Shown piece by piece: positions 35,742 to 44,155 of a DNA stretch of 47,124 bases. Numbering within the stretch: the first letter of the stretch is position 1; every line of letters begins with the position of its first letter. The DNA comes from Planoprotostelium fungivorum (taxonomy: Eukaryota; Evosea; Variosea; Cavosteliida; Cavosteliaceae). A program made the position numbers and the translations under genes. A model generated the notes under the pieces. The model saw nothing but the letters and a program-made list of their open reading frames with translations. It had not been told where the DNA came from and searched no databases. The DNA is taken from the NCBI GenBank assembly GCA_003024175.1, contig MDYQ01000211.1:1-47124 (forward strand), given 5' to 3'.

Positions 35742-38700
35742 ATGGACCTTCGAGCTCTGGCTGGAAATACAGCCCCGCCGATCCCTGTTCGGCCGTATGA
35801 GCAGATGGGAAATCAGCAACCACCTCCGAATGTCGAAGCATATGAGGAGGTACCCCCTGTAGACGTTCATGAATCACAGACAGAGACACCCACAACACAA
35901 GAGGATGAATTTCTCAATGCAATCCTCCAGCTCGACGACCACGAAGTCTCTGAACAAGCTTTTCGTCTGTTAGATGAGATGGTGAGATTGAACGAACGTC
36001 GAAGACATACAATGCGTCACGTGTCGGATGAGATGTTGATGATGGACAGCTGGTCGCATATTCGAATTATTCCAACGATCAAGATTTTGAGGAGCAGATG
36101 GATTGGTTTCACATCTACTTTCACCTCATTTTTAAAGTTCCCATCGAAAGACAGGTGACATCACCATCTGTTCCATTCCCTCCCCCACTCATCATCCCCC
36201 ACAGATGATGCAGTTAAAGAACTTGAACGGTCTCTGTCGTGACTGGCAGCTGGTCAAGAGCTACGCCAGCAAAAAATTCTGGATCAGACGCATCATGGAA
36301 GACGTCATCCCCCATTACCTGCGAAACGTAGAATCTCAGAAATATGTAGAGCTGACTGATTTCACCCCAGTCTTAAGTGAGTAAAAAATGGCGGGGAACT
36401 GGAATCGAACTCAAGACTGACGAAGACAGTCGAGCTGTCCGTGATGATCGAGACCATCGGATCGTTCAGCATCCACGAGAAAGAACTGAAATCGATATTC
36501 AGATGCATGCATAATCTGACGGGGGGACAGAAGGTGAACGACTCGTTGTAGTCCGTCGAAATGAATGATATCAGACCCAATTGTGGCCCATGCTGCTCAG
36601 TTCGATGAAGAAGATGTCCGTCACAGAGGGGCCCAGCGTATGTTTCAGTTTCCCAGGCTTGACCGACTGCGTACGTACTCGTACGTAACATATCGACTCA
36701 CATCATCAGGGTTTACTCCTACCACCCATCACAAAATTTCCAGGAAATGGTTGGTCTTTCTGTGCTTGGGTCAGGATCGAATCGTTCAGCAGCACCAGAG
36801 AGTACACACCCTTCTTATTCAGGTGAAACACTGTGACGTGTTATGACGTATCGTGACGTCATCAGCTTCATCAATGGAGAGGGATACGGTGTGGAGTGTT
36901 TCTTTCAAGAGGGCCAGATGGTCATACGAATGGACACGAAAACGAAGAAGCAGAGCTCCAGGATCAAATACAACATTCCACTGCAGACTTGGACTTTCAT
37001 CTGCGTGACCCACACGTACCACTGGATGGGTAGAAGCGAGCTGAAGGTACGTGATGGAGATCTCGTGGGAAGATGACGTCATCAGTTGTACGTCAATAAG
37101 CAGATGGTGGGAACCGCTCCGATGAATTATCCGAAGATCACGGAGCCGCTCAACACTTGTACCGTCGGTACGAACGCCAAAGTCTCCGGCCGTTACCCTG
37201 GTAACCCCTCCTCTCTCCCCCTCCCATTCATTTGTTACAGGAAACGGACAACCGAATCCGCTGTTCGGACAGATGTCTTCTTTCTTCTTCCTGCAAGAGG
37301 CTCTGAGCGAGGCGGAGATCAACCAATTGGCTTCGATTCCAGTCAGGCAGACGCCAAATCTGAACCCAACGAGCACAGAGCCCGATTCCCCCGTAGACAG
37401 TAAATTCGCCGCGAAAATCTACTTCGGATATTCTCCCAGGGTGGGTCGATCTACAACGCACTGAACTGAAATCTCGCAGAGATCTCAGGGAATCACGTGC
37501 TTCAATTACGCACCGGAATCGTCGAAAGTGAAGAGCACGACCCACGCGATCATCAGAGGTGTCCGAATCGTAAAAGTTTGTGACATCAAGGAGTCCATCC
37601 GTTACATCGGAGGCGTAAAGGTACGTACTTTCAGCTGGCACGTGTCTATCTGACATCTGACAGGTCGTATTTCCGTTGTTCGGGCAATTGGAATCCCTTT
37701 GCATCCCTTCCATTTTGGGAGATGAAGAAGAACCGATCCAATTTGTCGACTCCTTCTTGACTTCGCAGATCTTTTCCTTCCTGACAGAGTTACTGAGAGA
37801 GGTGATGGATCATTCATGCGATGGTGAGCTCACTTTCTACAGCACAAGAAGAATCAAGATGATATGGTCAAATGTTCTGGGTTTAGGGTTTTAGCTCACT
37901 TGATGAAACAAGCTTCACCTCAGTTCTATTCCACCGATATCGTGGTGGCGTTGGACTCTATGGCCGAATGTGTGCAAGTTAACGGTGAGATATCATCGAA
38001 ATCTCCGTTGACATCCGTCAGAAAAATTGGAGAAGGACATGTACATGAACATCTTCTTGGATATGCGATTGTGGATCTACACCGACATCACCGTACAACG
38101 AAAGCTGCTGCAGGTACGTACACATACGTACGTCCCACCGCATCCATCTGACACATCATCACAGGTTCTGACGACCCACCTATCAAAAAGATCCGATCAC
38201 TTCAGGAGAGTCATCGGTCTACAATTCATACTGGACGTCTGCCGTGATTACTACTGGTTCAAGCCGGAAGATTCATCGAAATCTACCGAGCCAGAACTCC
38301 GTGACGCCAACGGACACATCTTGGGAAGGAGACCCACACCGAAAGAGACGAGGGAATTGAGACATCTCCTCCTCGAGGTACGACGTCACATCGATGACGT
38401 CATCTGACGTCACGCAGGTGGTGTACAACTTTGTCAAGGATGGAATGACCGGAGAAGAGACCAGATCCGTTACGAATTACCTCTACGATTGTAAAGATCA
38501 GCTGCAGCTGGTCGACATCCTTCAGCTCATCTTGTCTCTCCAGAAGAAAGCGGATCACTCCATGGTCAAGCACGTTCTGGCCTCCGAGGGCGTCGATTTT
38601 TTCATCGGTCTGTTGCATAGCCCGGTCGATCACGTTCGCGTGTGGACGGTGAAGGTGAAATCTCCGCGAGATTTCACTTCTGACGTGTGTAGGTCATCGC

Positions 38701-41700: not shown

Positions 41701-44155
41701 CAGGATGGAGCTGAACACCATCTCCGGACGTACGTACAACGATCTGGCACAGTATCCCATTCTACCCTGGATCATCGCAGATTATCGTTCCGCAGAACTA
41801 GATCTCACCAAGGAGGAAACGTTCAGAGATCTCTCTCAGCCCATCGGTGCCCTCAATCCCAATCGATTGAAGATGCTCCAGCAGAGGTACGACTCGTTTG
41901 AACCGGACGGCAGCGTTCCACCTTTCTTGTACGGTTCTCACTATTCGAATCCTGGTATCGTTTTATTCTACCTCGTACGTATGGAGCCCTTCTGCACGTG
42001 AGATTTCGGGGAAATGTGTCAGAGTTGAAATTTCGCAGACACTTCTTGACGATGCAGGGAGGATACTTTGATATTGCCGACCGCATGTTCACGTCGATGG
42101 AGAGTACCTGGGACAATGTTCTGCAGAATTCGGCCGATTTCAAGGAATTGGTGGGTGTTCCGAGGAATTTGAAAGTGACTCGTTGTAGATTCCCGAATTC
42201 TTCAGCACGCCGGAGATGCTGGAGAATCTCAATGGATTTGATCTGGGAACGAAACAGAACGGAACGAAGATCGATGACGTCATACTACCTCCCTGGGCCC
42301 ACGGCAGCTCCAAGGAGTTCGTACGTATCAACGCCGCCGCCCTGGAGTCAGGTGAGAAATTTCGAGGAAATTCTGTGTATACTGATGAGATTTCAGATTA
42401 CGTATCGGCTCATTTGCACGAATGGATCGATCTCATGTTTGGATACAAACAGAGTGGACCGGAGGCTCTCGTGGCTAATAACCGTGAGTCATCACGTGAG
42501 CGTAACGTAGAATGACGTCATCAGTCTATTACCACATGTGTTACGAGGGAGGTGTAGATTTCAATGCCTTCGAGAGTCCGGAACAGATGAAGCCGGCTTT
42601 AGATCAGATCCACAACTTTGGACAGGTCAGTGAGATTTCCAATTACGTAGTTTGATCTATTTTTAGGTCCCTGTACAATTATTCAACAAGAAGCATCCCT
42701 GTAGAAACATCTCGAAAGAGGAAGAAATGGCAAAGAAGAACAGTCTGATCAACCAAGGGACCAGTTTATTGGGCCAAGGCACGAACATCATTTCGAGCTT
42801 CACGAGACCGAGAGCCAGTAGCCGCGAGAATGCCATCCTCGTTGTAGACGCATACACCGTGCAGGTCCGTTAGATTTCGTCGAAATCTCACTGACTGTAC
42901 GAGGTGCGAGCCTTTGCAAAGGCCCAGCCCCTTCCCATCATCTTCATGAAGTCCTTCGAGGGGTATTTAATTACCCTATTCTCCGATGGAGTCCTCGGAA
43001 TACACCGTTTCGTCAATACTCCAGATGGAAAAGGTGAAGACGGTCTCGTTGTAGATGGAGTGAGGTCTGACCTCAGAACAGGCCTGCCCTTCACCCTGGA
43101 GCCGGACCGCTCTGCATCACTTCCCAACGCCAGGGAGCTGGAAGTCCTCATTCCCGAAGGCGACGAAATTTCATCGAGTTTCGTATTGGGTCTAGACGGT
43201 AAGATCATGTTCCACTCTGGTTTCTGGGACAACGGCGTCAAGGTGAGAGCAAAAATAAATCAAATCCTTTATTTCATTTTATTCGGTTCAACTGAAACCA
43301 TCCAGGTGGTCAACACGAACAACGGAAACTTCATGTCTTCTGCGTACGAGCACGATGACATGATCACATGCTTAGACATCGGTGACGATGGAAAGACTTT
43401 GGTCACCGGCTCACTCGACACCTCCGTCCGAATCTGGCACTACGGTGAACCCTCTAAATCGAGATGGATGGAGAAGATCGTCAAGGGAGCTGGGAAAGTC
43501 ATCTCACACGTGTCGACTCTCATCGGTCACGATGATACGGTCACTTGCGTGGCCGTAAACACTGACTTGGGAATCATCGTGTCGGGAAGTCGAGATTGTA
43601 CGTTCATACAGCACACTACGGATGGAAAATACGTCAGGAGCGTACAGCACCCCTCCCCCGTACAGTTGGTACAGATCACGGCGACGGGACAGGTGAAAAG
43701 TCGATGAAAATTTGAAACTGAGGGGGGTAGATCGTCTCGTACTGCAAGAGCGCGGGAAAATTGTTCTCTCATTACGTCAACGGTCAACAAGATGCGGTCG
43801 TCGCTTGTGAAGGTAAATTTCGTAGAGATTTCAAAAACTGAGAAAATGATAGGAATCACCCAGATGTTAGTCACGAAGGAAGGACAGCTACTGATCACCA
43901 TCAAGGGTGAAGAGGGTATCATCGAGGTAAAATTCCGACGACTTTCATCTCTGACGCATCTTTCAGGTGAGAACCTCAGATACATTGAGAGTGCTGCGCA
44001 CGTTAGACAAGATTCAAGCGGGGATCAAATCGGCTTGCTTCTATCTAGAAGATGAGCAGGAGAAGTACCTCTTGGTGGGCTCTCCAGACAGTCGAGTGAC
44101 GATACACAAGTTCGATCCCAGGCAGATCTTGTCCCAACCACCGACGCTGCAGTGA
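35742..44155 (+). CDS. BEACH-domain protein (neurobeachin/LRBA/Lvs family) with LamG-like, PH-BEACH and WD40 domains
   Basis: Large scaffold of the BEACH family, which governs membrane trafficking and vesicle or lysosome fusion (Lvs proteins in Dictyostelium). The N-terminus is Pro/Glu-rich ([20 protein letters not shown]). A concanavalin/LamG-like domain lies at about 36.6-37.4 kb ([38 protein letters not shown]). Alpha-helical armadillo-like sequence follows to 40.7 kb, then ERGPW-type DRGPW and [21 protein letters not shown] is at 41.2-41.65 kb and BEACH at 41.7-42.6 kb ([49 protein letters not shown]). WD40 repeats ([20 protein letters not shown]) run to the stop. About 35 introns, many carrying the palindromic elements described below. 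The start at 35742 is the first ATG with a long open frame; the upstream ATG frame stops early. Confidence 0.9.
36854..36865 (+). repeat. Intron 3' end TGACGTCATCAG (one of five in this gene)
   Basis: The same 12-mer ends BEACH introns at 36854-36865, 37074-37085, 40957-40968, 41425-41436 and 42513-42524. In each case the final CAG is the acceptor and the exon resumes in frame (for example FINGEG, LYVNK, VENHARM, YALQ, LYYHM). Confidence 0.85.
38655..38692 (+). repeat. Intron that is mostly one hairpin (10-nt arms, 3-nt loop)
   Basis: The intron opens with GTGAAATCTC, then CGC, then GAGATTTCAC, a perfect inverted repeat starting at the donor GT. Only about 15 nt remain before the acceptor. 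Related GAAATYTC / GARATTTC arms occur in introns at 39014, 41650, 42000, 42350, 42865, 43810 and elsewhere in this gene. Confidence 0.85.
40401..40420. repeat. Perfect 20-bp palindrome CATCTACAACGTTGTAGATG
   Basis: The site lies in a BEACH exon, coding ...TIYNVVDE.... It is the longest perfect instance of the CATCTACAACG / CGTTGTAGATG element, whose other copies in the window are mostly intronic half-sites. Confidence 0.9.
42872..42888. repeat. 17-nt inverted repeat AGATTTCG-T-CGAAATCT inside a BEACH intron
   Basis: The repeat occupies nearly half of a 39-nt intron (42865-42903) and is a clean example of the ATTTCG hairpin family. Confidence 0.8.

Follow-up and report, generated by a model that had tools for sequence, protein, structure and literature searches.

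Our analysis of the window, the whole 47,124-nucleotide stretch of Planoprotostelium fungivorum DNA, together with further loci and genome-wide matches, shows that the palindrome TGACGTCA, as GATGACGTCATC, is a member of a small lexicon with TGGCTCGTTGTAGATGG, GAAATTTC and TTGGCGGGAA. The best explanation we can offer, with a probability of roughly 0.47, is that these words make up gene-body arrays for sequence-specific DNA-binding proteins and that the TGACGTCATCAG at 3' intron ends is one use of GATGACGTCATC; the pattern can be read directly from the letters, and from it we infer binding and function. In this scheme, such proteins would bind the words, which run through gene bodies as arrays in phase with the helix, and the arrays could tune the expression or chromatin of the genes that bear them. 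Candidate proteins would be a bZIP factor for TGACGTCA and an E2F-like factor for TTGGCGGGAA.

An earlier note on this DNA described five introns of one gene that end in the same 12-mer. All five indeed close with TGACGTCATCAG (ends 36865, 37085, 40968, 41436 and 42524; exact matches, against a shuffle mean of 0.04). Our own gene finder, whose splice model was limited to GT with four donor bases and to the base preceding AG, put all five ends at these coordinates; the gene models are self-made, from sequence without transcripts. On the plus strand, the 43-nt intron at 36823..36865 also has TGACGTG and TGACGTA inside, the 39-nt intron at 37047..37085 has a sole TGAC, the palindrome's own, the 38-nt intron at 40931..40968 carries two TGACGTCA, the 37-nt intron at 41400..41436 ends in GATGACGTGTGATGACGTCATCAG, with two TGACGT 10 bp apart, and the 41-nt intron at 42484..42524 lies within the BEACH domain. 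The reported excess of the palindrome is borne out: the window holds 21 TGACGTCA, against a mean of 1.56 and a largest value of 5 in 100 dinucleotide shuffles, and there are 4,581 sites genome-wide against 561 for the reversed control. For TGACGTCATCAG, the genome has 330 + 358 = 688 copies and its reversed control 0. A same-strand GTGA 18-40 nt upstream of TGACGTCATCAG gave 208 + 195 = 403 pattern matches against the 688 12-mers, where ~9% would be expected and a site with two GTGA can score twice. Many copies are intronic, as had been said: a second annotation of our own assigns 15 of the window's 21 to predicted introns and the other 6 to predicted exons (23001, 23324, 29550, 29882, 40752 and 42275). 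The copy at 40752 probably belongs to a 37-nt intron (40749..40785, plus strand) that the gene finder missed and that was recognised by eye; this probable intron has two TGACGTCA at a distance of 11 bp. The one at 42275..42282 (plus strand) is exonic, coding DDVILPPWA inside the Pfam BEACH match. Also by eye, a probable 39-nt intron at 40393..40431 (plus strand), an exon to the gene finder, has an 18-bp palindrome, ATCTACAACGTTGTAGAT. TGACGTCA is likewise present, as reported, in introns of prolyl-tRNA synthetase (647..690, minus strand, with further ACGTCATC half-words) and of the 2-oxoacid dehydrogenase E2 gene (17652..17690, minus strand, ending in CTGACGTCACGCAG).

The view that splicing consensus does not explain the motif is upheld by the base after TGAC in the 12-mer: the central-base variants with A, C or T number 272 for the three words (~91 each) against 688 with G, which is thus ~7.6 times commoner than their mean. 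Since a branch TGAC plus CAG would tolerate any next base, the dominance of G makes splicing consensus alone insufficient. The earlier note saw in the shared ends either introner-like elements or a shared 3' splicing signal; its excess beyond chance and consensus stands, but both origins fit poorly, the splicing signal being unsupported as primary cause because TGACGTCATCAC outnumbers TGACGTCATCAG (1,145 vs 688). The word is not locked to the 3' splice site: TGACGTCA also occurs near 5' ends and mid-intron. At the branch position, the base preceding TGAC tracks the word, not branch preference: it is A in 15/22 TGACGTCA cases vs 33/172 others (Fisher 5e-6), and those others favour C (81/172). 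On the side of a splicing signal, the word does provide a branch site with an AG at usable distance: 22 of the 194 branch-position TGAC in short introns lie in TGACGTCA, and 22 of 39 TGACGTCA cases end no more than 6 nt from the 3' splice site. With little space left beside the splice signals in introns of 35-45 nt, the words overlap them: TGACGTCATCAG in ~40-nt introns may double as branch point and 3' splice site, CGTTGTAG could supply the 3' TAG and GTGAAATTTC the 5' splice site. Among plus-strand introns, the TAG of CGTTGTAG is the 3' splice site at 42151..42188, the intron at 38655..38692 starts with GTGAAATCTCCGCGAGATTTCAC, the third word (GAAATTTC-like) lying across the 5' splice site, the one at 41198..41238 has the second lexicon word, as ATCTACAAC, at its 3' end, and the 40-nt one at 38378..38417 contains TGACGTCATCTGACGTCA, a pair of palindromes spaced by 10 bp whose second member is close to the branch position.

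The lexicon words are enriched in introns, where the non-palindromic second word stands in both orientations: its 16-mer has 327 genome copies and occurs within introns 16 times in sense and 8 times in antisense. Word density is 3.8/kb in introns, 0.87/kb in exons and 0.49/kb in intergenic DNA (13 words in 26.5 kb); introns would be densest because they are freest to vary. Promoter or intergenic enrichment of the bZIP/CRE type was not seen in these intergenic and intron densities, and word-poor intergenic DNA is odd for ordinary transcription-factor sites. No report of this word lexicon was found among the open-access literature matches listed. Beyond the window, 19 loci (L001-L019) are the fixed coordinates 10001-20000 on contigs among the TGACGTCATCAG genome matches listed, L020-L042, L047-L057 and L061-L065 were picked for holding or adjoining a word, and L043-L046, L058 and L059 because they match TGACGTCATCAG; the BEACH paralogues L066-L069 were picked by homology. 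L058 is included in the density, exon-intron correlation, missed-intron filter, branch-base, splice-site-distance and phased-pair counts, and L058, L061 and L062 in the per-frame codon, simple-word and codon-bias counts.

At synonymous sites, predicted exons too are enriched in the second, third and fourth words. By synonymous choice, the window and the 19 loci have 42 GTTGTAGA against 11.2, 20 GAAATTTC against 3.3 and 16 GGCGGGAA against 2.4, with reversed controls at 15 vs 8.9 (AGATGTTG), 1 vs 1.8 (CTTTAAAG) and 1 vs 2.6 (AAGGGCGG); exonic TGACGTCA is weakly enriched without the window (5 vs 1.6). Frame by frame, LQ is written CTA-CAA in 8/37 cases vs 0.21, and VV as GTT-GTA in 16/44 vs 0.96, possible missed introns included; some frames are not significant alone, namely CR (1/10), DV (5/60, p 0.05) and FE (3/24). 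The simple words AGAGAAGA and CATCATCA beat the synonymous shuffle about equally, so the synonymous null is not clean. Missed in-frame introns were rejected as the source of exonic words: when every site possibly within a 3n GT[AG]...YAG stretch was dropped, enrichment survived for GTTGTAGA (29 vs 7.3), GAAATTTC (18 vs 2.5), GGCGGGAA (16 vs 2.1) and TGACGTCA (8 vs 1.9), and was lost for TACGTACG (2 vs 1.0). Exonic copies mostly stand alone, use several reading frames and fall at synonymous positions in conserved motifs, L063, an FG-repeat-like gene, being the exception.

The words are also spaced as expected of bZIP/CRE-type arrays on the helix, with TGACGT at 10 and 21 bp: among the first 100 of 2,335 genome matches listed, 63 TGACGT pairs are at 10 bp and 8 at 21. 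For GAAATTTC, 21 pairs are at 11 bp and 15 at 22 among 50 of 261 genome matches listed, and 54 CTACAACG pairs are at 21-24 among 100 of 312. In these genome listings, the spacers between phased copies varied, with the caveat that palindromic pairs are entered on both strands. Orientation is uninformative for a palindrome; the non-palindromic second word is present in either orientation. In the window and loci examined, 27 of 31 phased TGACGT pairs are intron-intron, and none of the few GAAATTTC pairs there is at 11 or 22 bp; the phasing of GAAATTTC was seen in the genome listing, which gives pairs without intron or exon labels. A longer shared word, TGACGTGTGATGACGT, accounts for some of the 10-bp TGACGT peak. 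A pair of palindromic words separated by 3 nt also gives a hairpin, which could yield a spacing of 11 bp but neither 22 bp nor that of CTACAACG.

Particular genes are rich in the words: of the 32 introns predicted in the BEACH paralogues, 19 bear them (18 of 29 once three stretches of misread exon or tRNA are excluded) vs 77 of 735 in the 19 loci. Per gene, exon and intron word densities correlate (rho 0.48, p 0.0015, n 41), at 0.34 (p 0.03) without exonic words possibly in missed introns and at 0.29 (p 0.07) when L058 is removed too. Codon bias and gene length, uncorrelated with it across 50 genes, were rejected as sources of the clustering. Six introns lie at a position shared with a paralogue or no more than 8 nt from one; among them, the word differs in 3, the second word is the same in 2 and the word is missing from the paralogue in 1. 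In two other paralogue pairs, one of them offset by 4 nt, the shared-position intron has TGACGTCA in only one copy. The intron at 42484-42524 matches an L067 intron in position and phase, and the latter bears GAAATTTC instead. Since 42484-42524 is missing in three other paralogues, 41400-41436 in four and 40931-40968 in L069, the one comparable there, some of these introns may be gains.

We consider it unlikely that the words act in pre-mRNA instead, whether as elements of splicing or through self-complementary hairpins by which tiny introns are shortened or shaped. TGACGTCA and GAAATTTC are palindromic, the second word also forms inverted pairs, the proximity of TGACGTCA to 3' splice sites and the poverty of intergenic DNA would fit, and introns with words have slightly more stable folds than shuffles (mean z -0.45 vs -0.02, p 0.011), with z below -2 in 20% of TGACGTCA-class introns vs 3% of others. 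RNA hairpins as main cause were nevertheless rejected, the folding effect being small; the partner arm is missing for many copies, the non-palindromic 16-mer is used in both senses, the spacing of 21-24 bp has no obvious RNA reason, and the CAC version outnumbers CAG. It also seems improbable that the words have no function and are kept being copied by molecular drive or a mutational process such as slippage, short-patch conversion or small-satellite spread. Tandem arrays in which the second word recurs as identical 17-bp units (C8:38995-39104) and the richness of introns in cryptic CATCATC/GATGATG repeats are what such copying would leave, but most exonic copies, L063 excepted, are single and dispersed over frames at synonymous sites, the spacers between phased copies vary, and the diverged BEACH paralogues, chosen by homology, are still word-rich.

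An introner-like origin, in which introns multiplied from a common source and the shared ends are element remains, is very unlikely, because the likeness between introns is the word and not the entire intron. It would account for the exact long words, such as the 16-mer, in introns of unrelated genes, for both orientations, for three of the five introns being missing in some or all of the compared paralogues, and for there being more similar intron pairs than in shuffles (score >=34: 40 vs 0 same strand, 12 vs 1 antisense). However, 10 same-strand pairs score >=40; their flanks mark 7 of these as paralogous, and the other 3 share a sub-portion only. In an all-vs-all comparison of 844 introns, no end-to-end similarity was found across non-paralogous genes, the best such pair sharing ~23 nt around a word. 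An introner survey (PMC9860276) demands similarity to both intron ends and, as here, has unrelated genes' introns sharing sequence in both orientations, but here words alone are shared, at least one intron position is common with a paralogue, and exons carry words. Word-bearing introns are no longer than others, and against this origin also stand the position that 42484-42524 shares with a paralogue, the differing words at 3 of 6 shared or near-shared positions, and the predicted exonic words in several frames.

For the DNA-binding arrays that we prefer, several known systems offer partial likenesses. TGACGTCA is the CRE, a bZIP binding site, and homotypic clusters of transcription-factor sites are known. 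The same 8-bp palindrome, here extended as GATGACGTCATC, occurs at several sites per gene, often 10 bp apart; unlike in those clusters, the putative sites here are in introns and exons, not promoters, and at least three other words behave alike. Duons (dual-use exonic codons) and Neisseria DNA uptake sequences are words favoured at synonymous coding sites; here, the organism is a eukaryote, the words are a handful, and introns are densest. Periodic An/Tn clusters (PATCs) are phased at 10 bp. The PATCs of C. elegans (PMC7725773) are a non-coding DNA signature, phased and located in the introns of certain genes, and most nearly matched here by GAAATTTC at intervals of 11 or 22 bp in the genome listing, but here there are several specific words instead of A/T runs, in ~40-nt introns and at exonic synonymous sites too. 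The internally symmetrical stwintrons of Hypoxylaceae (PMC8469720) likewise have internal palindromes common to intron copies, but form globally similar families with 45-55-nt inverted repeats, whereas our introns are ~40 nt and share words alone.

We further suggest, as a possible but doubtful extension drawn from these sequence patterns, a gene-body DNA code in which helix-phased words mark a subset of genes, the need for them having shaped tiny-intron sequence, branch and splice bases, and synonymous codons. If this were true, the introns and synonymous sites of a compact eukaryotic genome would be under word-level DNA selection and neither would be neutral there, ~40-nt introns would bear two codes in the same letters, and a DNA-binding word could masquerade as an introner or a splicing signal. 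The kinase introns that the earlier note had listed hold for 2 of the 6 TGACGTCA of a kinase-like gene; the remaining 4 are exonic and conserved with the protein, and were therefore left out of the evidence. This gene has an internal duplication ~6.5 kb apart; segmental duplication was considered as a source of the words and rejected.

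The five introns that the earlier note reported as finishing with the 12-mer TGACGTCATCAG (ends at 36865, 37085, 40968, 41436 and 42524) and the 21 copies of the CRE-like palindrome TGACGTCA are present where it placed them. Our own two-strand gene finder, whose splice model knows only GT, four further donor bases and the base preceding AG, put all five intron ends at the same coordinates. In the window and nineteen 10-kb stretches, it predicted 934 introns, their lengths peaking at 35-45 nt. Pfam matched the BEACH and E2 catalytic domains each as a single stretch spanning predicted splice junctions; the match to leucyl-tRNA synthetase was split into several stretches, and that to the HECT domain was partial. 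The models miss in-frame open introns and misread some exons; 3 of 32 introns predicted in BEACH paralogues are really exon or tRNA. Judged by eye from the protein, the window model at 34747-46337 probably fuses a BEACH-WD40 gene with an adjacent membrane transporter-like gene.

Genome-wide, TGACGTCA has 4,581 sites versus 561 for the reversed word, and TGACGTCATCAG 688 versus 0 for its reversed control. In short introns a branch-like CTGAY sits some 13 nt short of the end, so TGAC and CAG within the 12-mer are ordinary signals. The excess nevertheless exceeds the splicing consensus, as the earlier note held, in ways that branch and AG signals do not explain: 12-mers in which A, C or T replaces the G that follows TGAC sum to 272 (about 91 each) versus 688 for TGACGTCATCAG; GTCA follows 22 of 194 TGAC at branch distance, the next commonest tetramers reaching 6; and the preceding base is A in 15 of these 22 palindromic cases versus 33 of the 172 others, of which 81 have C. 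Because, in addition, the CAC version TGACGTCATCAC outnumbers the CAG version TGACGTCATCAG (1,145 vs 688), the intron-end form is one use of a wider word, and the shared 3' splicing signal proposed earlier fits poorly as the main cause.

Counting words in introns brings out a lexicon that includes TGACGTCA, GAAATTTC and both CGTTGTAGA and the complement of the latter, alongside cryptic CATCATC repeats; CATTCGAA has no clear excess in introns (6 vs 3.84 expected). The 16-mer TGGCTCGTTGTAGATG has 327 exact genome-wide copies, and 35 examined in context comprise 16 intronic sense, 8 intronic antisense, 1 intergenic and 10 exon-labelled copies, two of the last resembling missed introns. In predicted coding sequence, with synonymous codons shuffled within genes as the null, the second word, GAAATTTC, GGCGGGAA and CATTCGAA are in about 4- to 7-fold excess, and reversed controls at most weakly so (e.g., AGATGTTG, 15 vs 8.9); TACGTACG failed the exon filter. 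Exonic TGACGTCA numbers 11 vs 2.6 including the window and just 5 vs 1.6 without it. Simple words such as AGAGAAGA are likewise enriched over this shuffle, so the coding excess is not peculiar to the lexicon. Exonic copies occupy several reading frames and fall in DHRVVDGA (E2), KMSKSTGNF (leucyl-tRNA synthetase) and DDVILPPWA (BEACH). In a locus with an FG-repeat-like protein (L063, C53:60001-68000), TCTACAAC begins 21 of 25 STT tripeptides.

In the window and sampled loci, 28 pairs of TGACGT have a spacing of exactly 10 bp vs 0.34 expected, and phased pairs are mostly intron-intron (27/31). Among the matches listed genome-wide, TGACGT has 63 of 100 rows at 10 bp and another 8 at 21, rows that are not all independent because palindromic pairs appear on both strands; GAAATTTC pairs are at 11 (21/50) or 22 (15/50), and 54 of 100 CTACAACG rows are at 21-24. 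Spacers between phased copies are variable, one TGACGT spacer (GTGA) being recurrent. A predicted 153-nt intron in L069, a BEACH-paralogue locus that also holds a tRNA gene, carries five CTACAACG words 21-23 bp apart (C49:132864-132961), and small tandem arrays of a 17-bp unit containing CTACAACG lie at C8:38995-39104 and C105:28229-28270.

Words also cluster by gene (chi-square 208, 62 degrees of freedom). They occur in 19 of 32 predicted introns of four BEACH paralogues identified through a protein search (18/29 excluding misreads), compared with 77 of 735 introns across the nineteen loci, and in 29 of 55 introns of the window BEACH gene, whose model probably includes the neighbouring transporter gene. 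Exon and intron word densities correlate across genes (rho 0.48, n=41), which may owe something to missed introns: the value is 0.34 (p 0.03) after filtering exonic words for these, and 0.29 (p 0.07) when L058, a locus picked for a word match, is also left out.

The earlier note had also suggested introner-like elements. Counterparts of 41400-41436 are absent from four BEACH paralogues, and that of 40931-40968 from the one paralogue compared. Paralogue L067 has an intron that matches 42484-42524 in position and phase, with GAAATTTC in it, and the other three paralogues have none there; five further window introns have a paralogue intron 1 to 8 nt from the aligned position. In these six, the word is different in 3, the same second word in 2 and missing from the paralogue in 1. 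Two other paralogue pairs have TGACGTCA in one copy only of a shared-position intron, one position being offset by 4 nt, probably through a miscalled donor. These comparisons suggest that words come and go within existing introns, at least in part. Word-bearing introns are no longer than others, so the words make up the intron body and are not additions to it. We consider introners the least likely explanation.

We prefer a reading in which the words would form gene-body arrays bound by proteins. Four features, shown to the extents described, speak for it: words used in both orientations, phasing with the helix, a preference at synonymous sites and clustering by gene; the proteins and their effect are what we infer. 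The strongest objection is the low word density between genes, and the odds are slightly lowered by the weakened exon-intron correlation and by the few GAAATTTC pairs in the window and sampled loci, which sit at other spacings (16, 18, 21, 23, 34 and more) than the 11 and 22 bp common among the matches listed genome-wide. It is also possible that the words act at the RNA level, or that they reflect drive.

Elsewhere in the window, a signal recognition particle RNA gene lies at 33655-33948 on the minus strand (Rfam RF00017, 123.8 bits), and an LRR/kinase-like gene at 21500-33700 has an internal duplication. This duplication, whose copies are separated by about 6.5 kb, mixes near-identical blocks with diverged ones in a mosaic such as gene conversion leaves. 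In L016, one of the nineteen stretches, introns recur together with their flanks, identical but on the opposite strand (304-1104 and 8199-8998), as an inverted duplication inside 10 kb.
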